Positions 4,725 through 17,887 of a stretch of DNA of 23,172 nucleotides are shown piece after piece. The notes under the pieces are model-generated. The model saw only the letters and a list, made by a program, of their open reading frames with translations, was not told the origin of the DNA and did no database searches. Both the position numbers and the translations under genes were made by a program. This DNA comes from a virus. The stretch covers positions 1 to 23,172 of IMG/VR virus record IMGVR_UViG_3300027968_000051; one strand, written 5' to 3'. Position 1 is the stretch's first letter. The number at the start of each line of letters is the position of its first letter.

Positions 4725-4995
4725 GTCGGAACCAGAGGTCGAAGACATCCTGATGGAGCCGTGCTTCATTCTCCTGGCGACCGATGCGTACGCAGCAACA
4801 GCCGTGCTTCGGTGGGCTGATCGGATGGAGAAGGCCGAGCACAGGCCGGACGTTGCGGACGCAGCTCGAGCCTACGCACTGAAGATGCAACAGTTCGGTC
4901 GCGAGCACGGAACGAAGGTCTTGACGGAGATTCCGGAGATGGAGGTGCCGCACGAGCCTCCGGCCAAGCCCGTTCGGCGAGCCGTCCATGGGTGA
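4690..4995 (+). CDS. Hypothetical acidic phage protein
   Basis: ATG 4690, preceded by GAGGAGGAC, gives 101 aa and overlaps the resolvase by 35 bp and the QueE gene by 8 bp. The N-terminus is acidic and Pro/Ser-rich (about residues 1-20). A predicted helical core follows ('FILLATDAYAATAVLRWADR', 'DVADAARAYALKMQQFGREH'), then a Pro-rich basic tail. I do not recognise a domain. The open frame extends further upstream, but the strong ribosome binding site supports 4690. Confidence 0.6.
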   Translation: MPESTEEPSQPESEPEVEDILMEPCFILLATDAYAATAVLRWADRMEKAEHRPDVADAARAYALKMQQFGREHGTKVLTEIPEMEVPHEPPAKPVRRAVHG

Positions 4996-5710
4996 AATCG
5001 TCATCAACGAGATCTACGGACCGGTCCTGCAGGGAGAAGGAGCCACACGCGGTCGGCCAGCAGCGTTCGTGCGTCTCGGTCGGTGCAACCTTGCGTGCAA
5101 GTGGTGTGACACGCCGTACACGTGGGACTGGAAAGGAGCCAACGGGCAGGCTTACACACCGGCCAAAGAGCTCAAGCGCATGAGCGTCGAGGACGTAGTC
5201 GAGATCGTCCAAGGTATTCGAGCAGATCGCGTCATCATCAGTGGTGGCGAACCGATGCTGCAGCAGAAGGCCTTAGCCGAGTTTATCCTTTGTTTGCCGA
5301 CACACTCGTTCGAGATCGAGACGGCCGGAACGAGAATGCCGACACCGCTCTTTCTCGGAACACGAGCCACGGTGATAGGTCGGAAGATCTCCTACAACGT
5401 CTCACCGAAACTCGAGAATAGCGGCAACAAGAAGCTGACACGCTACAAGCCGGCCGTTCTCAAAGCACTTCGTGACCGAGGTGCAAGGTTCAAGTTCGTC
5501 GTCAACGACAAGGTGGACCTTGAAGAGGTCGACGAGATCGTCAAGGAGATCGCTATCGAACGGAGTCGTATCTGGATCATGCCTGAAGGTGTACACGTCG
5601 AGGAAGTCATCGCAAGAGCCCGACTGATCGAACCAGCCGTTCTCGACCGCGGATGGAATCTGACGCTTCGAGATCACGTATTGCTGCACGGAGACAGGAG
5701 GGGAGTGTGA
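4988..5710 (+). CDS. queE: 7-carboxy-7-deazaguanine synthase (radical SAM, QueE)
   Basis: QueE converts 6-carboxy-5,6,7,8-tetrahydropterin to 7-carboxy-7-deazaguanine, the third step towards preQ0. The 240-aa sequence opens with the family hallmark 'INEIYGPVLQGEG', followed by the radical SAM cluster motif C33-x3-C37-x2-C40 (CNLACKWC) and the 'DTPYTWDW' segment. The SAM-binding 'IISGGEP' is at about residues 83-89, with 'FEIETAGT' further on. ATG 4988 overlaps the previous gene by 8 bp, and the stop overlaps the FolE start (GTGTGA). It is the first biosynthetic gene of the cluster and probably shares its transcript. Confidence 0.93.
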   Translation: MGEIVINEIYGPVLQGEGATRGRPAAFVRLGRCNLACKWCDTPYTWDWKGANGQAYTPAKELKRMSVEDVVEIVQGIRADRVIISGGEPMLQQKALAEFILCLPTHSFEIETAGTRMPTPLFLGTRATVIGRKISYNVSPKLENSGNKKLTRYKPAVLKALRDRGARFKFVVNDKVDLEEVDEIVKEIAIERSRIWIMPEGVHVEEVIARARLIEPAVLDRGWNLTLRDHVLLHGDRRGV

Positions 5711-6282
5711 ATACAGCCGTCGAGAACGCGGTTTACGAAATGCTCGACGCAGCCGGAGTTGACTGGCAAGACGACAACTTTGCGGACACGCCAAAGAGGT
5801 TCGCTACGTGGGTCAAGCCACTTGCAGTACCGGTGGATCAGGTAACTGTCAAGGACATCCTGTCGGCCAAGTTCTCGGAAGAGCACAAGGAGATGGTAGC
5901 CGTCACGAACATTCGTGTACACGCTGCCTGTGCACATCACCTCCTACCGTTTACCGGAGTCGCGCATGTCGGGTACCTGCCTGGCAAGTACGTCGTTGGT
6001 ATCAGTAAGCTAGCGAGACTAGCCCAGTACATCGCGAACCGCTTCACGCTGCAAGAGCGCGTTACGACGCAGATCGCAGATGCGCTGATGACGCATTTGG
6101 AGGCGGACGGAGCCATCGTCGTCGTCAAAGCCGTCCACAACTGCATGGCCGTTCGCGGAGTGAGAGAGCCCTACGCAGAGACGGTAACGAGTGCAACGCG
6201 TGGACTCTTTCGAGAGAACGCCAACGGTTGCAAGACAGAGTTTCTGTCGCTCATCCCATCGACGATTGGAGGGTCGTTGTGA
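5707..6282 (+). CDS. folE: GTP cyclohydrolase I
   Basis: FolE makes 7,8-dihydroneopterin triphosphate from GTP, the entry step for 7-deazaguanine synthesis. I chose GTG 5707 because ACAGGAGGGG lies just before it and it overlaps the QueE stop by 4 bp; this gives 191 aa. Family features are clear: 'DTPKRFA', zinc ligands C75 and H78 in 'CAHHLLPFTGVAHVGYLP', 'VVGISKLARL', and the later 'NCMAVRGV' carrying the third zinc ligand. A start at 5653 is possible but lies deep inside queE. A phage copy beside queE, queC, queD and dpdA points to DNA modification, not folate supply. Confidence 0.93.
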   Translation: MNTAVENAVYEMLDAAGVDWQDDNFADTPKRFATWVKPLAVPVDQVTVKDILSAKFSEEHKEMVAVTNIRVHAACAHHLLPFTGVAHVGYLPGKYVVGISKLARLAQYIANRFTLQERVTTQIADALMTHLEADGAIVVVKAVHNCMAVRGVREPYAETVTSATRGLFRENANGCKTEFLSLIPSTIGGSL

Positions 6283-6824
6283 CTGACGAGGCGGTCGATC
6301 CGCAAGGAATGAGGCAGTACGCACCGTTCCCACACGAGCTTGCGGAGTTGGTCGAGAGACTCCGCTACCGTCCGGGCTGGACGTTCAAGCTGGCCGATAT
6401 CGAACGAGATCCCGCGGACACGCACAGTGGCAGTGCGGGCGGATTGACCTTCATCGGTCTCACTGGCGACTGGGTACGGACACCTCAAGGCGGTCGACGC
6501 TACGTTGGAGCTGAGGACGCCTACCATCCAGGTACGCCTCGCCCAGTCTACTTCTACTTCCCGGTACCTGCTGCAACTTACGACAGACAGAGCTGGCGCC
6601 GCTGGCTGTTCGACTGTCTGCTACTCGTCGAGAAGCACGAGGCCATGGAGCACTTCGCCTTCGTTACGCACGAAGACTACGAGAACGGTTTGACTGACGA
6701 GGAGTTGCCCGTCGAGCGACCGTACTCACCGACACACGGTCCGGGACGCACACCGTACATCATCTTCGAGGTGACGACGGAGGAGAACAAGCGCACCAGT
6801 TTCCGCGGGGAGGTCAACGAATGA
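6279..6824 (+). CDS. Hypothetical conserved phage protein
   Basis: GTG 6279 overlaps the FolE stop (GTGA) and has TTGGAGGG upstream; an ATG at 6309 is the alternative. The product is about 181 aa. It has a recognisable alpha/beta make-up: 'LAELVERLRYRPGWTFKLAD', 'LTFIGLTGDWVRTPQGGRRY', 'PVYFYFPVPA', then a helix 'WRRWLFDCLLLVEKHEAMEH' ending in acidic and aromatic residues. I recall similar uncharacterised proteins in actinophages, but I know of no function. Being embedded between folE and the endonuclease/dpdA pair, it could belong to the modification pathway or simply be a passenger. Confidence 0.7.
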   Translation: MTDEAVDPQGMRQYAPFPHELAELVERLRYRPGWTFKLADIERDPADTHSGSAGGLTFIGLTGDWVRTPQGGRRYVGAEDAYHPGTPRPVYFYFPVPAATYDRQSWRRWLFDCLLLVEKHEAMEHFAFVTHEDYENGLTDEELPVERPYSPTHGPGRTPYIIFEVTTEENKRTSFRGEVNE

Positions 6825-7294
6825 AGCTCGCACAACGACAATGGTTATCGGAGACTCGACGAGGTCCCGGTAATCCGATGTGGGGTCGGAAGCGCATCTT
6901 CTCTCCGGAGCATCGAGAGAAGTTGCGACAGGCTCGACTTGCACGACCGGACAGATCGGCACTTGCTCGTGCGGCTGTAGCCGCTCAACAGAGTCGCATG
7001 ACTCAAGCCGAGAAGGATGAGTGCGGGCGGCGAATGCTCCGGGCACAAGTGGCGGTCGAGACCGCTCCCGAGCGAGTTGTGCGCTTTCTGCTAGAGGCAT
7101 CTGGACGGAGATTCGAGAGGCAAAAGCCGATCGGACCGTGGCGAGTCGACTTCTACGTCTCAAGCTGCAATCTCGTCATTGAGGTCGATGGTTGGTGGCA
7201 TCAGAACACAACCGAGGTTCAAGCTCGAGACAAACGCAAAAACGCTGACCTATTGGCCCGAGGATTCAACGTCCTCCGAGTGGAGGTGGACTGA
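6821..7294 (+). CDS. NUMOD3 plus Vsr/DUF559-type endonuclease (homing-like)
   Basis: ATG 6821 overlaps the previous stop by 4 bp (ATGA). The 157-aa protein has an N-terminal NUMOD3-like DNA-binding repeat (about residues 15-42, 'GNPMWGRKRIFSPEHREKLR'). A C-terminal domain of the Vsr/DUF559 group in the PD-(D/E)XK superfamily follows: 'RVDFYVSSCNLVIEVDGWWH', then 'KRKNADLLARGFNVLRVEVD'. The acidic residues in 'VDF' and 'IEVDG' would be catalytic. NUMOD motifs mark free-standing homing endonucleases, so this is probably a mobile gene that landed in the modification operon. Its stop lies directly against the DpdA-like coding start, which may explain why that gene lacks a normal start codon. Confidence 0.72.
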   Translation: MKLAQRQWLSETRRGPGNPMWGRKRIFSPEHREKLRQARLARPDRSALARAAVAAQQSRMTQAEKDECGRRMLRAQVAVETAPERVVRFLLEASGRRFERQKPIGPWRVDFYVSSCNLVIEVDGWWHQNTTEVQARDKRKNADLLARGFNVLRVEVD

Positions 7295-7295
7295 C

Positions 7296-8120
7296 ATCAA
7301 GCTTGCCAACATCGTTCCGATTCCGCTACTCGATCGACTCCTGACGGAGGAAGACGACTACCACCTCGTCCTAGGCGATCTCATCGTCGAGAGCAAGGTG
7401 TATGCGGACTTCTACGCCGAGCGCGTCAAGCGTGGTGACTACGTCATTCTCGACACGATGGAAGCTGAGCGTCCAGGTGTCGGTACGCCGATGTCGACAA
7501 TGCAGGAGGCGATTCGGACTCTGCAACCGAGCGAGGTCGTACTTCCCGACGTCAGTGACGATGGAGAGGCTACCATCCGCCGTGCACAGGAGGGTATCGA
7601 AGCCTTTCGCGAGATCGGGTATACCGGTCCGTTCATGGCCGTTCCACACGGAGCGTCCTTCCGCGAGTACATCACCTGTGCCAAGGTTCTGTCGCAGCTT
7701 CCGGGTGTTGAGTGCCTCGGAGTCTACGAGCAGATCCAGCGCAACTTCAGCATCTCTCGTCGCGCGATGGTGTGGAGACTGTACGGTCTCTTGACCGATA
7801 CGGGAAAGCACTACACGCAGATTCACCTTCTCGGTGGAGACGAAGACTGTGAGACGCTCGTCAAGACGACACTGAGAAACATCGTCCGAGGTCAAGACTC
7901 GGCCAAGCTCACCGTGTGGGGTCTGTCCGGACAGATCGTCACTCGAACGCACATTCCGCCCTACCCTGGACGCCGATTCTTCGGTGGAGAGAAGTACTTC
8001 TACGTGCGGGAGGGGAACCTCGCGGCTGGATCGATGGATGGAGTCGAAGTAGTTCCATCGACCTACGTGGAAATAGCAAAGCAGAACATCGCCTACTGGA
8101 GGAGGTACGTAGCAGCATGA
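7296..8120 (+). CDS. dpdA: DpdA/TGT-like DNA 7-deazaguanine transglycosylase (start codon unclear)
   Basis: This protein resembles phage DpdA, relatives of tRNA-guanine transglycosylase that swap guanine in DNA for a 7-deazaguanine base. Residues below count from 7296: N-terminal 'KLANIVPIP', D53 in 'YVILDTMEAE' (position of the substrate-binding Asp), D85 in 'VVLPDVSDD', H118 in 'MAVPHGASF', and 'IHLLGGDED' at about 176-184. Homology starts at the codon ATC 7296, six bases after GGAGGTGG (7282-7289), where an ATG would be expected. The nearest normal in-frame starts are TTG 7179 and ATG 7188, over 100 bp inside the endonuclease gene. Either ATC initiates or the protein has an extended N-terminus. 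QueC, QueD, QueE and FolE nearby support the role. Confidence 0.75.
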   Translation: MKLANIVPIPLLDRLLTEEDDYHLVLGDLIVESKVYADFYAERVKRGDYVILDTMEAERPGVGTPMSTMQEAIRTLQPSEVVLPDVSDDGEATIRRAQEGIEAFREIGYTGPFMAVPHGASFREYITCAKVLSQLPGVECLGVYEQIQRNFSISRRAMVWRLYGLLTDTGKHYTQIHLLGGDEDCETLVKTTLRNIVRGQDSAKLTVWGLSGQIVTRTHIPPYPGRRFFGGEKYFYVREGNLAAGSMDGVEVVPSTYVEIAKQNIAYWRRYVAA

Positions 8121-8344
8121 GCACCGAACCGCTTGATATCCGACCTGGACGACGGACCAAGACGACGGAACAGACGGAGCCGAAGCAGATCCTGACGATC
8201 ACGGTCTTCGTGGGGATGTACGACTGGGTCAAGAAGCACGTCAAGGCGAGCCCGGAGTACCGGTCCGTCGCTGACTACATCCGACAGCTCATTCAGAAGG
8301 ACCGTGAGCGAGTCGAGCGTGAGGAGGCCAAGAAGAGTGCTTGA
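8117..8344 (+). CDS. Ribbon-helix-helix DNA-binding protein
   Basis: ATG 8117 overlaps the DpdA-like stop by 4 bp and follows GGAGGTACG, giving 75 aa. A disordered N-terminus is followed by a strand 'ILTITVFVGMYDWVKKHV' and two helices 'YRSVADYIRQLIQKDRERVE', the order of a MetJ/Arc/CopG ribbon-helix-helix repressor. The C-terminus is a charged helix. Such proteins act as dimers on palindromic operators. Its place inside the modification operon suggests autoregulation or control of late expression, but I could not identify an operator. Other small helical functions remain possible. Confidence 0.55.
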   Translation: MSTEPLDIRPGRRTKTTEQTEPKQILTITVFVGMYDWVKKHVKASPEYRSVADYIRQLIQKDRERVEREEAKKSA

Positions 8345-9491
8345 GCGCACGCCTCTGACGTTTGACATCCCACGCATTGTCGACCGTGGGACGGACGCTG
8401 GTCAGCTGTTTGCTGGAAACGGAGTGCAGTACTACGACCTGTGCTGTGGAACGGGTTGCACTGGACTCGATGGCATTCTCCTCGAGGAGATCTTCGCACA
8501 GGTTGCAGAGATGCCGCTCAACACGTACGCCTACGAGACGGAGTTTCGAGACGAGGCCGAGGACGAGTTGCGACTCATGTATCCCGGTTACGCTTTCGCC
8601 TTCTTCTCGGGAGGTGCCGAGTGTGTCGAGGCAGCTCTGCGCGTAGCAGACGTCCTTGTCAGCCCTCTTCGACCACCAGTCACGTTGTCGTTCACGGGAG
8701 CCTTCCACGGAAAGACGTTCCGAGCGGGCCGTCTTGGAGACATGCGCCATCACGGCAAACACTTCCTTGTCGCCAACTACGAACGTCCGACCCTGCCTTC
8801 GCCGTACCACGAGCCGGCACCAGGAGGAGAGACGGGAGCTCTCATCGCACCGACGACCATCATCTTCGAGCCGATGCAAACGCGAAACGGCGTTCGTCCG
8901 ATGAGTCAGACGCAGATGGACGAGCTCTTCGCATACGCCATGCAGTGCGGCTCAATCGTCATTGCGGACGAGATCAGCACGACGATTCGGAGTGGCTATC
9001 CGTTGCTCTCCTGTGCAAATGTGACGGGATACAAGCCCGACATCATCTGCGTTGGCAAGAACATCGGTCAAGGCATTCCGGTTGCCGTTCTCGGCGTTCG
9101 AGCCGACCACGTCGACGCCGCAGAGAGAGTCTCGCTGACGAGTGGCTTCGGAGGCAACGCTCTTGCGTGTGTAGCCGTCGAGCGGACGCTGCACCACATT
9201 CGAGTCAACAACATCCTCGAGAAGATCCAGAAGCGGGGTGTGGAGTTTCTCAACGCTTTGACGGCGGAAGTCTCCGACCTGGTCCACCAAGTCGTCGGAG
9301 TCGGCTTCTGGTTCGGTCTCGAGCTCAAGGTCGAGGCTATTCCGGTTGCTCGAGCGCTTGCTCATCGTCACTGGATCGTCAGTCCAGCAGGACCGATGTC
9401 GATTCGGTTGTCGCCACCGTTCGAGCTGCAGGATGCGATCTGGTTCGAGTTCTTGAGCGACCTACGGGAGGTTCTCAGTGCCGAGAACTAG
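8337..9491 (+). CDS. PLP-dependent class III aminotransferase
   Basis: This is a complete 384-aa fold-type I, class III enzyme (ornithine/GABA/lysine aminotransferase group). Visible features are 'FAFFSGGAECVEAALRVA' (phosphate loop), 'FTGAFHGKTFRAGR' (ring-stacking segment), D211 in 'IVIADEIST' (pyridine nitrogen) and K241 in 'PDIICVGKNIGQGIP' (Schiff-base lysine). 'TSGFGGNALACVAVERTL' follows. I chose GTG 8337, nine bases after GAGGAGG, rather than GTG 8304 or 8319, which overlap the previous gene more. These enzymes move amino groups between amino acids or omega-amines and keto acids. A phage copy inside a preQ0 cluster is unusual; the likely substrate is an amine or amino acid used for, or attached to, the 7-deazaguanine side chain (inference). 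Confidence 0.88.
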   Translation: MLERTPLTFDIPRIVDRGTDAGQLFAGNGVQYYDLCCGTGCTGLDGILLEEIFAQVAEMPLNTYAYETEFRDEAEDELRLMYPGYAFAFFSGGAECVEAALRVADVLVSPLRPPVTLSFTGAFHGKTFRAGRLGDMRHHGKHFLVANYERPTLPSPYHEPAPGGETGALIAPTTIIFEPMQTRNGVRPMSQTQMDELFAYAMQCGSIVIADEISTTIRSGYPLLSCANVTGYKPDIICVGKNIGQGIPVAVLGVRADHVDAAERVSLTSGFGGNALACVAVERTLHHIRVNNILEKIQKRGVEFLNALTAEVSDLVHQVVGVGFWFGLELKVEAIPVARALAHRHWIVSPAGPMSIRLSPPFELQDAIWFEFLSDLREVLSAEN

Positions 9492-10224
9492 ACCGTCAGG
9501 TCCGCGCTTTCCAGCGGTAATCATCAACGACGACGGTGTCGAAGCTCTACCGTTTCTCCTGAAGGCTCTCTATCACCTTCGAGGCTTGGTGACACCGATC
9601 GCCTTCTTCTTGCCGGATCGAGATCGGTCAGGATGCGGAGGATACATTCGAACTCGTGGAGAGCCGATTCCGTTTCATGAGGTGGACACGCCATTGACGA
9701 ACGTTCCGGTCTACGTCGTAGATGGCTATCCGGCTGAGATCGCCTACCTCGTCAAGGTGCGGTACAAGCCCACTCGAGCGCGCGTCGTCTCCATCAACCG
9801 CGGCCACAACTTCGGAACGTTCATCTTCAACAGCGGTTGCGTCATGGGAGCGGTTCAAGCCAACTGGCTCGGCTTTGCCTCACTGGCACTCAACTGGCCG
9901 GAGAAGGAGATGCCCGGACCGGCAGACGGAGCCGTACTCGCATCGCTCGTGACAAGACTGTGGACGAGTCCGGAAGAGGACATGCGCAGCTCTCTGTGGT
10001 GCGTCAACTTCCCGACCAAGTATTCCACTCCGCAGCGATTGGTACAAGTGGGTCTCAGCCGGGTTCTGCCGGTGACGTATACTAAAGTACAGATGGGTGA
10101 GTTTCGCCTTATGGATAGGTCGCTCGAGATCGGTCCCGGAGATGCTCACGACGTTCTCGAGCGGGGTGTCGCGACCGCGGTCCCGCTCAACTCCGCAACC
10201 TTCACGATGCAAGGGAGCTACTGA
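9478..10224 (+). CDS. surE-like: SurE-like nucleotidase/phosphatase
   Basis: This 248-aa protein matches the SurE 5'/3'-nucleotidase fold. It has N17-D18-D19-G20-V21 (metal-binding NDDG), S51 in 'DRDRSGCGG', and N107 in 'VVSINRGHNFG', followed by 'NSGCVMGAVQANWLGFASLA', the counterpart of the SurE 'YSGTV-AA' helix. All usual metal ligands appear present, so it should be an active phosphomonoesterase on nucleotides or similar substrates. GTG 9478 follows ACGGGAGG and overlaps the aminotransferase by 14 bp. It could remove phosphate from a pathway intermediate or alter the dGMP pool; neither is shown. The C-terminal 70 residues diverge from standard SurE. Confidence 0.82.
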   Translation: MPRTRPSGPRFPAVIINDDGVEALPFLLKALYHLRGLVTPIAFFLPDRDRSGCGGYIRTRGEPIPFHEVDTPLTNVPVYVVDGYPAEIAYLVKVRYKPTRARVVSINRGHNFGTFIFNSGCVMGAVQANWLGFASLALNWPEKEMPGPADGAVLASLVTRLWTSPEEDMRSSLWCVNFPTKYSTPQRLVQVGLSRVLPVTYTKVQMGEFRLMDRSLEIGPGDAHDVLERGVATAVPLNSATFTMQGSY

Positions 10225-10898
10225 TGTACACGTACTGGAAGGGCGAGGACCCGATGATGTTGGCGAACCTCGAGTTCGACGGAGCCAACAGCGTCATTCT
10301 CAACACGTACACGCCGAGAACTCGCGTCGCGCTATTGACGGTTTGCTCGTGGGCTAAGCCGTACAGTCAGTCGCACATCCACAGAGCCATTCGGCAGGAC
10401 CTCATGACGACTGGTCCGAAGGGCGGTCTTCTGAACCAGATCGACTACATCCACCTGTCGAGCGCAGGAGTCATTCCACACGCATGCGAGAAGTGGTACC
10501 CGTTCACGGCCTACGACTGGAACAATGCACGCGTCGATACAGAGGCTCTGACGGAGGCTCTGGAGGTGTACATTGCCGAGCGGTTGATGCGATTCGTCAA
10601 GCGGTTCGAGTCCCACTATAGCCACTGGGTGACCTACTTCCGTGGAAACTCCACGACGTCGAAAGCCATTCTCCGCGTTCAGGAGCAGCTTCCACTGACG
10701 CGCTCACAGCCGTACATCGGTTCACCGGCAGAGGTCATCTGGCGAAACGTCTTCGTCTCATCACGCATCTCAGCCGATATGACCGTCCGTGAGAGTCTCC
10801 TATCCGGCTACTGCGACCCAGACGTTGCGCTAACCCTACCCGTCAATCTGGATCAGCTCCAGGCAACCCTGAAGGAGGTACTTGATGTACAAGAGTAG
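10224..10898 (+). CDS. ArcS-like (archaeosine synthase core, DUF5591-type) protein
   Basis: This 224-aa protein contains 'LLTVCSWAKPYSQSHIHRAI', with C41, K45-P46-Y47, S50 and H53. It matches the archaeosine synthase signature C-x3-KPY-x2-S-x2-H exactly. In Archaea, ArcS is a larger multidomain protein that adds lysine to the nitrile of preQ0 in tRNA. Only the catalytic core is present here, without PUA or TGT-like domains. A 'YIHLSSAGVIPHACEKWYPF' segment follows, typical of the core. ATG 10224 shares one base with the SurE stop (TGATG), and the end overlaps queC. Its place between dpdA and queC suggests it acts on preQ0, free or in DNA, to make an amidine-type or amino-acid adduct (inference). 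Confidence 0.72.
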   Translation: MYTYWKGEDPMMLANLEFDGANSVILNTYTPRTRVALLTVCSWAKPYSQSHIHRAIRQDLMTTGPKGGLLNQIDYIHLSSAGVIPHACEKWYPFTAYDWNNARVDTEALTEALEVYIAERLMRFVKRFESHYSHWVTYFRGNSTTSKAILRVQEQLPLTRSQPYIGSPAEVIWRNVFVSSRISADMTVRESLLSGYCDPDVALTLPVNLDQLQATLKEVLDVQE

Positions 10899-11577
10899 CG
10901 TCGTCATTTGCAGTGGCGGGATGGACTCCGTCACGCTGGCGTATGAAGAGGCTCGACGAGGGAAAATCCAGCTTCTCTCGTTTGACTACGGTCAGAGACA
11001 CAAGAAGGAGCTCGAGTGTGCGCGGATGTGCGCTGAGGACCTCAACGTTCCGTGGGAAGTTGTTGACTTGACGTCGCTTGGTCGTTTGCTTCACGGCTCG
11101 TCGCTATCCGATCGTCGAGTAGACGTACCGGACGGACACTACTCCGCACAATCGATGAAGCTGACGATCGTACCGAACCGCAACTCGATTATGCTCAACT
11201 GTGCGGTTGGGGTCGCTATCGGAACCGGGGCGGAAGTCGTCTACACGGCAGTGCACAGTGGAGATAGAGCCATTTATCCCGACTGTCGAGAAGAGTTTGT
11301 TCGAGCGCTCAATCAACTCATTCGCGTCGCGACTGAAACGAGCGTTCGCGTGGAGGCTCCCTTCGTAAACGTGACGAAGGCGGATATCGCCTCGATCGGC
11401 AACAGATTGGGAGTCGACTGGACGAGAACGTGGTCCTGCTACAAAGGCGGAGAGATCCACTGCGGACGTTGCGGCACGTGTACCGAGAGACAAGAGGCGT
11501 TCCATCTGGCCGGGGTTGAGGATCCCACTCCGTACGAGGATGCAGAGTTCTGGAAGACCGCAGAGGCGAACGCATGA
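10885..11577 (+). CDS. queC: 7-cyano-7-deazaguanine synthase (QueC)
   Basis: QueC uses ATP and ammonia to turn 7-carboxy-7-deazaguanine into preQ0. The 230-aa sequence has the PP-loop 'SGGMDS' at residues 10-15, 'LSFDYGQRHKKELECA', 'VPNRNSIMLNCA' and 'HSGDRAIYPDCREEF'. The zinc site is C185-x7-C193-x2-C196-x2-C199, as in bacterial QueC. No glutamine amidotransferase domain is fused, so it is not the Gat-QueC form that makes archaeosine precursors. ATG 10885 is preceded by GAAGGAGG; TTG 10882 is an alternative. It overlaps the ArcS-like gene by 14 bp, showing translational coupling. Confidence 0.95.
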   Translation: MYKSSVVICSGGMDSVTLAYEEARRGKIQLLSFDYGQRHKKELECARMCAEDLNVPWEVVDLTSLGRLLHGSSLSDRRVDVPDGHYSAQSMKLTIVPNRNSIMLNCAVGVAIGTGAEVVYTAVHSGDRAIYPDCREEFVRALNQLIRVATETSVRVEAPFVNVTKADIASIGNRLGVDWTRTWSCYKGGEIHCGRCGTCTERQEAFHLAGVEDPTPYEDAEFWKTAEANA

Positions 11578-11903
11578 AGTTGCGATCGGGATTCTGCCAG
11601 AATCCAGAGTGTCGCTGGCTCGGTGAGTGTCCGGTCTTGCTACCGGAACACATGATTCCGAAATGGCACTTCAAAGCCGGACTCGCTAAGGGTGATCCGA
11701 CAGATCCGTCTAACATTGAGTGGTGGTGTCCGACTTGTGCGCGGATCAAGACTCGCGCTGAGCAGCGTACGGACGAGTATCGAGAGTACGTTCGGACCTG
11801 GGGTACCGGCAGGAGACACCACGCGGACTCGATCGAGAAGGTAAGAGCATCGGCTCTTGCAAGGGAGGCTCGGTGGAGAGTATCTGGAGTTCGACATGAC
11901 TGA
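11574..11903 (+). CDS. HNH endonuclease 1
   Basis: ATG 11574 overlaps the queC stop (ATGA) and gives 109 aa. The HNH fold is visible as 'CQNPEC', then 'EHMIPKWHFKAGLAKGDP', 'DPSNIEWWCPTCARIKT', with paired Cys residues for structural zinc and the central His/Asn. A basic C-terminal stretch ('GRRHHADSIEKVRASAL') resembles a shortened NUMOD-type DNA-binding tail. It is clearly related to the endonuclease at 12564-12959: both read '(H)xxPxWxFKxGLxxGDPTDPxN'. It is probably a free-standing homing endonuclease in the modification operon. Confidence 0.78.
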   Translation: MKLRSGFCQNPECRWLGECPVLLPEHMIPKWHFKAGLAKGDPTDPSNIEWWCPTCARIKTRAEQRTDEYREYVRTWGTGRRHHADSIEKVRASALAREARWRVSGVRHD

Positions 11904-12267
11904 GAGGTTGAGCGAGCAGCTGCCGGTCCAGCCGTCTGAGACACACAAGTGGGCGGCTTGGTGCTCACAGCACACAAGTCACCCGATCGACTGCTTCTGG
12001 GAGCATCACCCGGAGGTGTGCGAGGAACACCACAAACTACAATGTGAGGAGTGTCATGGAATCCGAATCCGAGTCCCAACCGCAGTCGAGCGACACGAAC
12101 GAATTCAAGCGCAACGCGAGACCGCTAGTGTCGATCAGCAAGGAAGTGGAGTTCGATGCGGGACATCGAGTTCCGGCACACAAGAGCAAGTGTCGGAACC
12201 CACACGGCCATCGCTACCGGGTTCGGGTCCTGTGCGAGGGAGTGATCCAACCGACAGATGCGGGTAG
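11896..12267 (+). CDS. Possible small Cys/His-rich protein overlapping queD
   Basis: ATG 11896 is six bases after GGAG (11886-11889), overlaps HNH 1 by 8 bp, and opens a frame that fills the otherwise empty gap before queD. The first 55 residues have a zinc-site look: 'WAAWCSQHTSH', 'DCFWEHHPEVCEEHH', 'LQCEECHG'. The frame continues 212 bp into queD and there looks like a shadow of it (Ser/Gly/Arg-rich). Either a real gene runs on inside queD or the expressed product is different from the open frame. I do not recognise it. Confidence 0.4.
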   Translation: MTERLSEQLPVQPSETHKWAAWCSQHTSHPIDCFWEHHPEVCEEHHKLQCEECHGIRIRVPTAVERHERIQAQRETASVDQQGSGVRCGTSSSGTQEQVSEPTRPSLPGSGPVRGSDPTDRCG

Positions 12268-12571
12268 CACAGGTGGCATGCTCGTCGACTTCGGAGACCT
12301 GAAGTACTTCCTCCAGACGCTGGCTGGACTACTCGACCACGCCATGATCATCTGGAAGGGTGATGACGAGCTGCTCGAAGCCTTTAGAGGTCACGACTGG
12401 AACACGGCCGTCTTCGAATACGTGCCAACGGCCGAGAACATCGCTCGCTGGTTCTACGACGAGTTGTCAAGAAGCGTCAACGCTCGCTACGTCAACGACT
12501 TGCGCGTCTCCGGTGTCAGTGTGTGGGAGACGCCGACGAGCTGTGCGCACTATCGAGGCGATCGTGGCTGA
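12056..12571 (+). CDS. queD: 6-carboxy-5,6,7,8-tetrahydropterin synthase (QueD)
   Basis: QueD turns dihydroneopterin triphosphate (the FolE product) into 6-carboxytetrahydropterin, the QueE substrate. In the 171-aa protein the zinc histidines are H37 in 'FDAGHRV' and H50/H52 in 'CRNPHGHRYRV', with catalytic C46. 'GMLVDFGDLK', 'LLDHAMII' and 'PTAENIARWFYDEL' follow in the family order. ATG 12056 has GAGGA five bases upstream; GTG 12044 is an alternative. The first 24 residues are Ser/Glu-rich and outside the family core. With FolE, QueE and QueC this completes the preQ0 pathway in about 7.6 kb. Confidence 0.93.
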   Translation: MESESESQPQSSDTNEFKRNARPLVSISKEVEFDAGHRVPAHKSKCRNPHGHRYRVRVLCEGVIQPTDAGSTGGMLVDFGDLKYFLQTLAGLLDHAMIIWKGDDELLEAFRGHDWNTAVFEYVPTAENIARWFYDELSRSVNARYVNDLRVSGVSVWETPTSCAHYRGDRG

Positions 12572-12959
12572 CCACACGATCTCCGGTGACTGTGCAATCT
12601 GCGGCATCTACCGGTACTCGCTCCACAGAGATCACATCGTACCGAGATGGAAGTTCAAGTACGGTCTGGTTGAGGGAGACCCGACAGACCCGGCGAACTT
12701 CCAGTACCTGTGTGCCAACTGCCACGAAGACAAGACCCGAGAGGAGTTCTTGTCTGACGAGTACCGAAGAATCGCGGTCGCTCGAGTCGGTCTCTACACG
12801 GATGAGTACCGAGAGCGACAGCGTCAGGACCGTCTCGGAAAACAACACACGTCGGAAGCAAGAGCCAAGATCGGTGCGTATGCACGCAACCGTCCACCGG
12901 AAGTTCGAGAGAAGTTGCGGCAAGGTGCACTCAAACAACATCGAGGAGGGATCGTATGA
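12564..12959 (+). CDS. HNH endonuclease 2 with NUMOD3-like tail
   Basis: GTG 12564, five bases after GAGG, overlaps queD by 8 bp and yields 131 aa; GTG 12543 is possible. The HNH part has 'CAICGIYRYSLHRDHIVPRW' (D-H pair), 'GDPTDPANFQYLCANCHEDK' and zinc cysteine pairs. The C-terminus carries NUMOD3-like repeats ('GKQHTSEARAKIGAYARN', 'PEVREKLRQGALKQH'), a homing-endonuclease DNA-binding element. It is a paralogue of HNH 1 about 1 kb upstream, so the two flank the Cys/His ORF and queD. Probably a mobile gene that does not take part in the pathway. Confidence 0.78.
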   Translation: MADHTISGDCAICGIYRYSLHRDHIVPRWKFKYGLVEGDPTDPANFQYLCANCHEDKTREEFLSDEYRRIAVARVGLYTDEYRERQRQDRLGKQHTSEARAKIGAYARNRPPEVREKLRQGALKQHRGGIV

Positions 12960-16658: not shown

Positions 16659-17126
16659 GTGGGAGCAACAGACCGCAAGAAGCTCATCAAGACGGGGGAG
16701 AAACTTCTCTCGGGACCGACGCCGACGGATCGAGCGGGCATGCTCAGCCTATGCGAGGATCTTCTCAACACGGCACAGGAGATCGTTGACGACTTCGAAG
16801 AGCAACGAGACAACTTCGGTACAGCGTCCGGTCTTCTCGAGTCGTGGGAGGAGAACTACGGTTGTCAGCAAGACGGTTGGGACTCCGCCGTTGTGAGTCT
16901 CGACGACATCAAGTCTCGTCTTGAGGAGGCGGAAGAGACGCAAATGGTGCGGTGCACACTGTGTGGTGGGGAGGGCACGCTCGAGACAACACTCGAGACT
17001 GATGAAGAACCGACGGAGTGCACACAGTGCGGAGGCACGGGTGAGATCGAAGAGGAGGTCGAGTTCGACCCGCACGTAGCCTTCGAGGAGATCGAGTCCG
17101 CCTGGCAAGAGGGAGTGACACAATAG
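16659..17126 (+). CDS. Acidic protein with DnaJ-like double zinc motif
   Basis: GTG 16659 follows AGAGAGGAAG and gives 155 aa. The first half is helical and acidic ('LLNTAQEIVDDFEEQRDNF'). The second half has two CxxCGGxG knuckles: C99-x2-C102-GGEG and C121-x2-C124-GGTG, 19 residues apart, as in the zinc-binding repeats of DnaJ and related RNA- or protein-binding modules. A strongly acidic C-terminus (EIEEEVEFD) follows. The lack of a J-domain means it is not DnaJ itself. The stop shares one base with the next start (TAGTG). Role unknown. Confidence 0.68.
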   Translation: MGATDRKKLIKTGEKLLSGPTPTDRAGMLSLCEDLLNTAQEIVDDFEEQRDNFGTASGLLESWEENYGCQQDGWDSAVVSLDDIKSRLEEAEETQMVRCTLCGGEGTLETTLETDEEPTECTQCGGTGEIEEEVEFDPHVAFEEIESAWQEGVTQ

Positions 17127-17887
17127 TGGACGAGGACTATCTCAAGTCGCTCATCGACCGCGTACGTCCGCACACGATGGTGTGGCCGGCCTCACTGCAC
17201 TCGCTAGCCCATCTCGTCGAGTACGTCCTCGATCACGACATACCCGGAGACTTCGTTGAGTGCGGAACGTGGAAGGGCGGTTGCTCGTTTCTCATTGCAG
17301 ACATCCTCAAGCACCGGGGAGTGGAACCGAAGGAGCGATTGGTCTGGATGTTCGACTCGTTCGAGGGTATGCCGGCACCAACGCCAGTAGACGGCGAGCG
17401 AGCTCAGCGATTCGTGCGTGAGACGGACAGTCCGCGTTACTACGACAACTACAAGGCCGAGATCGGAGAGGTAGTCGCCGCAGCTCGAGCACTCGGTCTG
17501 CGACTGTGGCTCCTTCCGGTCAAGGGCTGGTTCAACGAGACGCTTCCGAACTGGAGTGAACGCACGGCAAATCGACCGATCGCTCTTCTACGTGTCGACT
17601 GCGACTGGTACGAGAGTGTCTCCTGTGCACTGTCGAACTTGCGCGGCTTCGTTGCTCCCGGTGGCTTCATCGTCCTTGACGACTACTACTGGTTCGAGGG
17701 AGCTCGAAAGGCCTTTGAGGACTTCCGTCCGTGGACGGGTTGGTCTGGTGTGCACAGTGTCTACTCGGCGTCAGCTAGTAGTCTCACGGCAGAGAGCGCG
17801 TGGATTCAGCGAGTCAAGGAGACACCGAGGGACTTCGACCCGCGCACGTCGATTTACGTAGAGCCCCAGGAAAAAGTCGAGTTATAA
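17126..17887 (+). CDS. TylF/macrocin O-methyltransferase-like SAM methyltransferase
   Basis: This 253-aa protein follows the TylF (macrocin O-methyltransferase) layout of class I SAM enzymes: 'PGDFVECGTWKGGCSFLIAD' at 40-59 (SAM loop), 'VWMFDSFEGMPAPTP', 'VKGWFNETLP', D158-C-D160 in 'LLRVDCDWYES', and 'GGFIVLDDYYWFEGARKAFE' with D185/D186 as likely metal ligands. Characterised members methylate sugar hydroxyls. In a phage the target could be a glycan, a nucleotide sugar or a modified base; the sequence does not decide. GTG 17126 overlaps the preceding stop by one base. It ends the rightward block before a probable new promoter. Confidence 0.8.
   Translation: MDEDYLKSLIDRVRPHTMVWPASLHSLAHLVEYVLDHDIPGDFVECGTWKGGCSFLIADILKHRGVEPKERLVWMFDSFEGMPAPTPVDGERAQRFVRETDSPRYYDNYKAEIGEVVAAARALGLRLWLLPVKGWFNETLPNWSERTANRPIALLRVDCDWYESVSCALSNLRGFVAPGGFIVLDDYYWFEGARKAFEDFRPWTGWSGVHSVYSASASSLTAESAWIQRVKETPRDFDPRTSIYVEPQEKVEL

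Follow-up and report, generated by a model that had tools for sequence, protein, structure and literature searches.

A class III aminotransferase linked to an ArcS-like domain in phage 7-deazaguanine gene clusters

To our knowledge, the 7-deazaguanines described so far in phage DNA carry small groups only (cyano, amide, amidine, aminomethyl, and simple derivatives). Cui et al. (2023) reportedly added four further phage 7-deazaguanines together with a decarboxylase (DpdL), a methyltransferase (DpdM), a formyltransferase (DpdN), and no aminotransferase, and our literature search found no paper on an aminotransferase in a 7-deazaguanine DNA modification pathway. Here, we analyze a class III pyridoxal phosphate (PLP)-dependent aminotransferase (AT) encoded in the 7-deazaguanine (que) gene cluster of the IMG/VR virus record IMGVR_UViG_3300027968_000051. 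The whole stretch analyzed, 23,172 bases of viral DNA, is called the window below; by Pfam scan, its que cluster spans positions 4988 to 12571 on the plus strand.

The closest described chemistry is archaeal. ArcS of Thermococcus kodakarensis attaches lysine to 7-cyano-7-deazaguanine (preQ0), the free preQ0 nucleoside included, and the radical SAM (S-adenosyl-L-methionine) enzyme RaSEA then cleaves the adduct (PMC11298593). The role of the ArcS homologues found in phages was called unclear by Hutinet et al. (PMC6884629). In the window and in several other phages, an ArcS-like domain is accompanied by the AT and by a phosphatase, and we suggest that the AT supplies the amine that the ArcS-like enzyme joins to preQ0.

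Recurrent linkage of the aminotransferase and an ArcS-like domain

The AT, SurE, ArcS-like, and QueC genes of the window overlap one another (AT/SurE by 14 nucleotides [nt], SurE/ArcS-like by 1 nt, and ArcS-like/QueC by 14 nt) and are therefore probably co-translated. Pfam recognized the AT as a member of Aminotran_3 (PF00202; 123 bits against a cut-off of 30.5) and its neighbors as QueE, FolE, SurE, an ArcS-like protein, QueC, and QueD (Table 1), which bears out the initial annotation, made from the sequence alone, of a class III aminotransferase inside a 7-deazaguanine cluster. The AT had also been placed next to the ArcS-like gene; the two do belong to the same overlapping run, although SurE lies between them. 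The AT reading frame begins with a GTG at 8337 (an alternative in-frame GTG lies at 8304), ends with a stop at 9491, and encodes 384 amino acids. The GAGGAGG found ahead of the start is a plausible ribosome-binding site.

A tblastn search with the window ArcS-like protein retrieved the Synechococcus phages Ssp-JY38 (recorded host, Synechococcus sp.) and Yong-L2-223 (Synechococcus sp. PCC 7002), the cassette proteins of which are identical. Both encode a class III AT of 347 amino acids (2.1e-33) within about 8 kb of queE, queC, queD, folE, and a TGT/DpdA gene, annotated as "hypothetical protein" in one phage and as "acetylornithine aminotransferase" in the other. In Ssp-JY38 (JY38), the AT gene overlaps a gene annotated as "acid phosphatase," and the C-terminal half of the latter product is DUF5591, the ArcS-like core domain. 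Three more contigs, with the order queE-queC-AT-(phosphatase-ArcS)-queD-folE-dpdA-pol III beta, came from scanning IMG/VR with an alignment; single-sequence scans of IMG/VR with the window AT, SurE, and ArcS-like proteins gave no matches, so that alignments were needed. In Ssp-JY38 and these three phages, the AT is located directly upstream of the ArcS-like domain, which is fused to a HAD-type phosphatase unrelated to SurE, and the pair falls exactly between queC and queD in three of the four.

The linkage is real and recurrent. Far from being absent in all related phages, an AT stands beside an ArcS-like domain in the preQ0/DpdA clusters of five distinct phages, including the window. The specific AT-SurE-ArcS order for which the initial annotation had suggested a survey is, by contrast, confined to the window: SurE is absent from the other AT-bearing phage records, and a search of named phages gave no relative of it. 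Around a related ArcS domain, the lineages have different DpdA-like proteins and different phosphatases, which is compatible either with two independent assemblies of the cassette or with a swapping of parts between lineages.

The window ArcS-like protein matches the DUF5591 core with 42.8 bits (Pfam cut-off, 26) and stays far below the full-length ArcS equivalog NF040592 of NCBIfam (33 bits against 440), indicating that it corresponds to the core domain alone. Its motif, CSWAKPYSQSHIH, fits C-x3-KPY-x2-S-x2-H, which we take to be the ArcS motif, and the key residues are identical in archaeal AF0587, to which the C-terminal half of the modeled HAD-ArcS fusion aligned with a Z score of 10.7. 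The pattern CSxAKPYSxSxIH is common to all five AT-linked ArcS domains, which cluster in the tree (support, 85/93). ArcS homologues without an AT, those of Vibrio phage nt-1 and of survey locus L085, have CTxxRPYxxSRKW. No relatives were found when GTDB genomes were scanned for the ArcS family. As a separate observation, ORF19 of Sulfolobus virus STSV1 (L117, positions 5971 to 6534) is a DUF5591 protein (1.6e-20) with the C..KPY..S..H motif intact; its neighbors, most of them unannotated, include none labeled as an aminotransferase or a que gene.

Because the earlier seed proteins were both AT-linked, we surveyed a sample seeded with DpdA alone, consisting of the best 80 of 317 relatives of the JY38-type DpdA plus JY38 itself (81 loci, profile-scanned); this selection makes the locus frequencies rough. 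The AT and the KPY-motif ArcS occurred in the same 4 loci. QueC fused to a Gat domain (Gat-QueC), as judged from the position of the QueC motif, was present in 49 loci, none of which had an AT. Plain QueC was found in 25, all four AT loci among them (hypergeometric P = 0.011, uncorrected for the kinship of the loci). The window, outside this sample, has a plain QueC as well, of 231 amino acids, which covers only positions 144 to 370 of phrog_1550 and lacks the Gat domain. In other relatives, the slot between queC and queD carries different modules that also appear to process nitriles, namely, a stand-alone ArcS (one locus, L085) or, together with plain QueC, a small protein whose CPVN..LPD motif is QueF-like (seven loci). 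Thirteen loci had plain QueC without AT, ArcS, or QueF-like protein, and seven were unresolved. The corresponding scan for relatives of the DpdA of the window lineage yielded two loci, neither with an AT.

Several small proteins in these loci deserve mention. In L030, L071, L074, L076, L077, L084, and L099, the queC-queD slot holds an FCPVN.LPD ... MEDVA protein paired with a small membrane-protein-like open reading frame (ORF); the QueF-like motif was read by eye, and the two members scanned had no Pfam match. Between queC and queD, L080 (6829 to 7308) and L106 (7965 to 8450) encode a membrane protein that by eye resembles YhhQ/VUT, a possible preQ0 transporter. L002 and L006 encode small, mutually similar proteins (9161 to 9709 and 9743 to 10378), relatives of which lie beside queE in nearly all phages with the JY38-type DpdA.

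Active site and substrate class of the aminotransferase

The AlphaFold model of the window AT (pLDDT of 69.6, a moderate confidence) aligned with acetylornithine and putrescine aminotransferases over about 350 residues with Z scores of 32 to 33. The protein holds the SGGAE loop, FHGKT, the Asp facing the PLP pyridine (D211), the Schiff-base Lys (K241), and the Glu of an EP pair, and D211 and K241 are invariant across a seven-sequence alignment. The statement that all PLP-binding positions are intact was nevertheless a slight overstatement. The position of GabT T297, presumably the Thr with which the neighboring subunit contacts the PLP phosphate, is Gly in the window AT, whereas the four remaining phage ATs keep Thr and bacterial ATs of the L017 type have Ser. 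This position, an accessory rather than a strictly defining one, thus varies within the family. The equivalent of GabT R398, which we assume to bind the glutamate carboxylate, is retained in the phage ATs, so glutamate is likely the amino donor.

The acceptor side looks different. At the position of GabT R141, which by family knowledge we take to be the Arg for the distal carboxylate, all five phage ATs have Lys, and at E211, taken to be the switch Glu, the window AT has Arg and the others have Leu or Trp. The Escherichia coli enzymes ArgD, AstC, and GabT have Arg and Glu at these two positions, and PatA, which acts on putrescine, combines Lys with Glu. The window AT also missed every NCBIfam subfamily or equivalog cut-off, the best being argD (127.8 bits against 410). 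With both residues replaced and scores this far under the cut-offs, an acceptor of the acetylornithine-, ornithine-, or GABA-semialdehyde type is unlikely, and the ornithine-, lysine-, or GABA-type substrate class of the initial annotation could not be upheld.

These data also bear on whether the AT is an auxiliary metabolic gene for host amino acid or polyamine metabolism whose place in the cluster is accidental. Bacteria commonly encode class III aminotransferases, and argD did give the top subfamily score. That score is far from sufficient, the specificity residues are changed, and five distinct phages have the AT beside one and the same type of ArcS-like domain. Moreover, the class III ATs otherwise matched in phage records resemble bacterial sequence or transduced host loci (such as a bio locus). 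Among them, the tblastn matches obtained from named phages with the window AT as query, in a search that missed the JY38 AT at an E value of 1e-5, were mostly bacterial-looking sequence within phage entries. We regard a chance placement as the least probable of the alternatives and consider it very probable that the AT belongs to a DNA modification pathway.

The unusual active site, lacking the common distal-carboxylate Arg, could also be read as fitting an AT that acts on an aldehyde-bearing deazaguanine, or whose amine is joined as an amide, giving a substituted preQ1- or amide-type base rather than an ArcS-type amidine. Phage 7-deazaguanine side chains are indeed diverse (PMC6884629). No enzyme for making 7-formyl-deazaguanine was seen, however, and the Cys-bearing motif kept in five of five AT-linked ArcS-like proteins points to nitrile chemistry, so we find such a base improbable. 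Slightly less so, but still quite unlikely, is that the amine is a polyamine or a lysine-derived compound and that the phosphatase works in the recycling of nucleotides and not in making the amine. In favor of this reading, lysine is the amine used by T. kodakarensis ArcS (PMC11298593), PatA has the same Lys at the R141 position, and SurE proteins are annotated as 5'/3'-nucleotidases. The host, however, already has lysine and putrescine, for which no AT would be needed, and the fusion of the HAD domain to the ArcS-like domain implies that the phosphatase takes part directly in the reaction.

Two observations concern bacterial relatives. A specific origin of the window AT from HpnO was considered and rejected, since the HpnO profile scored no better than ArgD. 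The bacterial locus L022 encodes an AT with Lys at 141 and without Glu at 211, and hpnH is located 3.4 kb downstream.

A possible route to a substituted amidine

In the order of steps that we infer, FolE, QueD, QueE, and QueC would make preQ0, and the DpdA-like protein would exchange guanine in DNA for it. The AT may act on a host metabolite that bears a phosphate, most likely a small sugar phosphate, and turn its carbonyl into an amine, from which SurE in the window, or the HAD domain in the other phages, would strip the phosphate. The Cys of the ArcS-like protein would then activate the preQ0 nitrile, and the amine would be joined as an N-substituted amidine, comparable to what archaeal ArcS does with lysine. 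With no RaSEA-type enzyme to cleave the adduct, the base would keep its side chain. As QueE is the sole radical SAM enzyme in the AT-bearing records, the uncleaved amidine is the simplest predicted product.

That AT and ArcS are accompanied by phosphatases of two unrelated kinds suggests that dephosphorylation belongs to the job of the cassette. For the N-terminal half of the HAD-ArcS fusion, similar folds were 3mc1 (Z of 8.9), AfhF of phage HY126 (Z of 8.7), and BT0820 (Z of 7.5). These scores come from VIA re-alignment, as Foldseek with the HAD-ArcS model gave no confident match, and they are, like the AF0587 match of the C-terminal half, supporting rather than decisive because the model has low to moderate confidence (pLDDT of 62.8). 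Together with the phosphatases and the resemblance to AfhF, an RpiB-like isomerase encoded after the HAD-ArcS gene of JY38 (1-base overlap) hints at a sugar. A further hint is that the aminotransferase HpnO converts ribosylhopane to aminobacteriohopanetriol, an aminotriol (PMC12583986), although a weak one, given that the phage ATs are no closer to the HpnO group than to ArgD.

Several points weigh against this route. T. kodakarensis ArcS is active only in complex with RaSEA (PMC11298593), and no RaSEA was seen in the AT-bearing records. The DNA of Vibrio phage nt-1, which has a stand-alone ArcS homologue, contains mainly the deoxynucleoside of preQ0 (dPreQ0) (PMC6884629), so an ArcS homologue alone is no guarantee of an amidine. 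A sugar-derived amine in particular is weakened by the restriction of RpiB to JY38 among the AT-bearing phages and by the roughly equal scores of the phage ATs with ArgD-like and HpnO-like profiles. A common substrate does not seem to be implied for the window and JY38-type ATs, as their identity is only 20 to 23% and, in the tree, the JY38-type ATs form one clade (support, 100/100) while the placement of the window AT, a long branch, is uncertain. Finally, the window is only a 23-kb fragment.

The lack of RaSEA can be turned into a different argument, in which the ArcS-like enzyme attaches a metabolite with an amine and AT and phosphatase act on this adduct until it collapses to plain archaeosine (dG+ in DNA), with the AT in place of RaSEA. 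Relatives would most commonly make dG+ (the 49 Gat-QueC loci), and the cassette occupies the same slot and never accompanies Gat-QueC, as expected of a functional replacement. Yet it is not evident what a phosphatase would contribute to the cleavage of a lysine adduct, two unrelated ones have been recruited, and release of an amidine-bound side chain by transamination would be new chemistry. We rate ordinary dG+ as the most credible of the alternatives, although an unlikely one.

We thus return to the AT as a source of the amine donor for the ArcS-like enzyme, a role that the initial annotation had considered and that the recurrent linkage in preQ0/DpdA clusters makes the best reading. We put the AT-phosphatase-ArcS mechanism, with the identity of the amine left unfixed, at a probability of roughly 55%. 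That the amine is derived from a sugar is a tentative proposal, and more speculative still is the complete scenario, in which guanine in DNA is replaced by a 7-deazaguanine with an amidine-linked aminoalditol side chain, a new class of hypermodification chemistry whose cassette was assembled or reshuffled in two lineages. Nevertheless, since the trio recurs in unrelated phages, an undescribed DNA decoration is probable in the AT-ArcS phages, which likely represent a new branch of phage 7-deazaguanine DNA modification. If the route is correct, a cassette able both to produce an amine of its own and to join it with the preQ0 nitrile would put a larger side chain on DNA, relevant to the escape from restriction and CRISPR, and would account for phages keeping an ArcS homologue without its radical SAM partner. 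Two key genes of Ssp-JY38 are still annotated as "hypothetical protein" and "acid phosphatase." Since both Ssp-JY38 and Yong-L2-223 have been sequenced and have a host on record, the proposal is directly testable.

The window cluster and its closest known counterparts

Table 1. Genes of the que cluster in the window
Feature	Positions	Strand	Evidence and remarks
QueE-like radical SAM, 7-carboxy-7-deazaguanine synthase	4988..5710	+	Pfam Radical_SAM 1e-9; sole radical SAM match of the record
FolE, GTP cyclohydrolase I	5653..6282	+	Pfam 4.9e-56; real start probably slightly downstream
DpdA-like candidate transglycosylase	7179..8120	+	Homologues beside preQ0 genes in other phages
Class III PLP aminotransferase (AT)	8337..9491	+	Pfam Aminotran_3 1.2e-35; fold Z 33; residues
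SurE-type phosphatase/nucleotidase	9478..10224	+	Pfam SurE 4.6e-18; 66 bits against cut-off 22.1
ArcS-like protein (DUF5591), motif CSWAKPYSQSHIH	10224..10898	+	Pfam DUF5591 6.1e-11; motif, tree
QueC, plain form	10885..11577	+	Pfam QueC 2.9e-62
QueD-like 6-pyruvoyl-tetrahydropterin synthase homologue	12044..12571	+	Pfam PTPS 3.6e-32

The DpdA-like protein reached no Pfam or curated family cut-off and owes its name to homologues in Weizmannia, Bacillus, and Cellulophaga phages, where these lie within preQ0 clusters. No second radical SAM enzyme besides QueE was found in the window record or in four AT-bearing relatives, of which only Ssp-JY38 is deposited as complete. Across the cluster, nuclease-like ORFs (DUF559-like and HNH-like by eye; 6821 to 7294, 11574 to 11903, and 12523 to 12959) often overlap their neighbors. 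Downstream of the DNA polymerase gene, positions 17126 to 17887 encode a TylF/macrocin-type O-methyltransferase (Pfam TylF, 1.8e-38). Enzymes of this type methylate sugar hydroxyls, and the target here could be a modified base or a virion glycan.

Compared with archaeosine synthase of the euryarchaeal tRNA pathway, the phage proteins share the DUF5591 core, its Cys-KPY-Ser-His motif, and the predicted nitrile-amine chemistry on preQ0, but they consist of the core domain only, have no RaSEA partner, would act on DNA rather than tRNA, and come with an AT and a phosphatase instead of relying on free lysine. The Gat-QueC/DpdA pathway to dG+ (Enterobacteria phage 9g type) is another counterpart, as Gat-QueC is carried by most relatives of the JY38-type phages with the same operon order. 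In the AT phages QueC is plain, and the Gat role was apparently taken over by AT and HAD-ArcS or, in the window, by AT, SurE, and ArcS. Vibrio phage nt-1 also has a stand-alone DUF5591 protein in a preQ0 cluster, which differs in belonging to another subgroup (CTTTRPYENSRKW, without KPY and without the His) and in having no gene annotated as an aminotransferase nearby. AfhF, a D-arabinose-1,5-diphosphate phosphatase (PDB 9iqw), is like the HAD half of the fusion a phage-encoded HAD-type phosphatase of similar fold, although its chain of 123 to 134 residues has no ArcS domain and the resemblance in sequence is weak (E value of 0.044). With ArgD, GabT, PatA, and HpnO, the phage ATs share the fold, the PLP residues, and the Arg for the glutamate carboxylate, and they differ in the replacement of R141 by Lys (seen in PatA too), in that of E211 by Arg, Leu, or Trp, and in an identity of only 19 to 29% to the cellular relatives compared.
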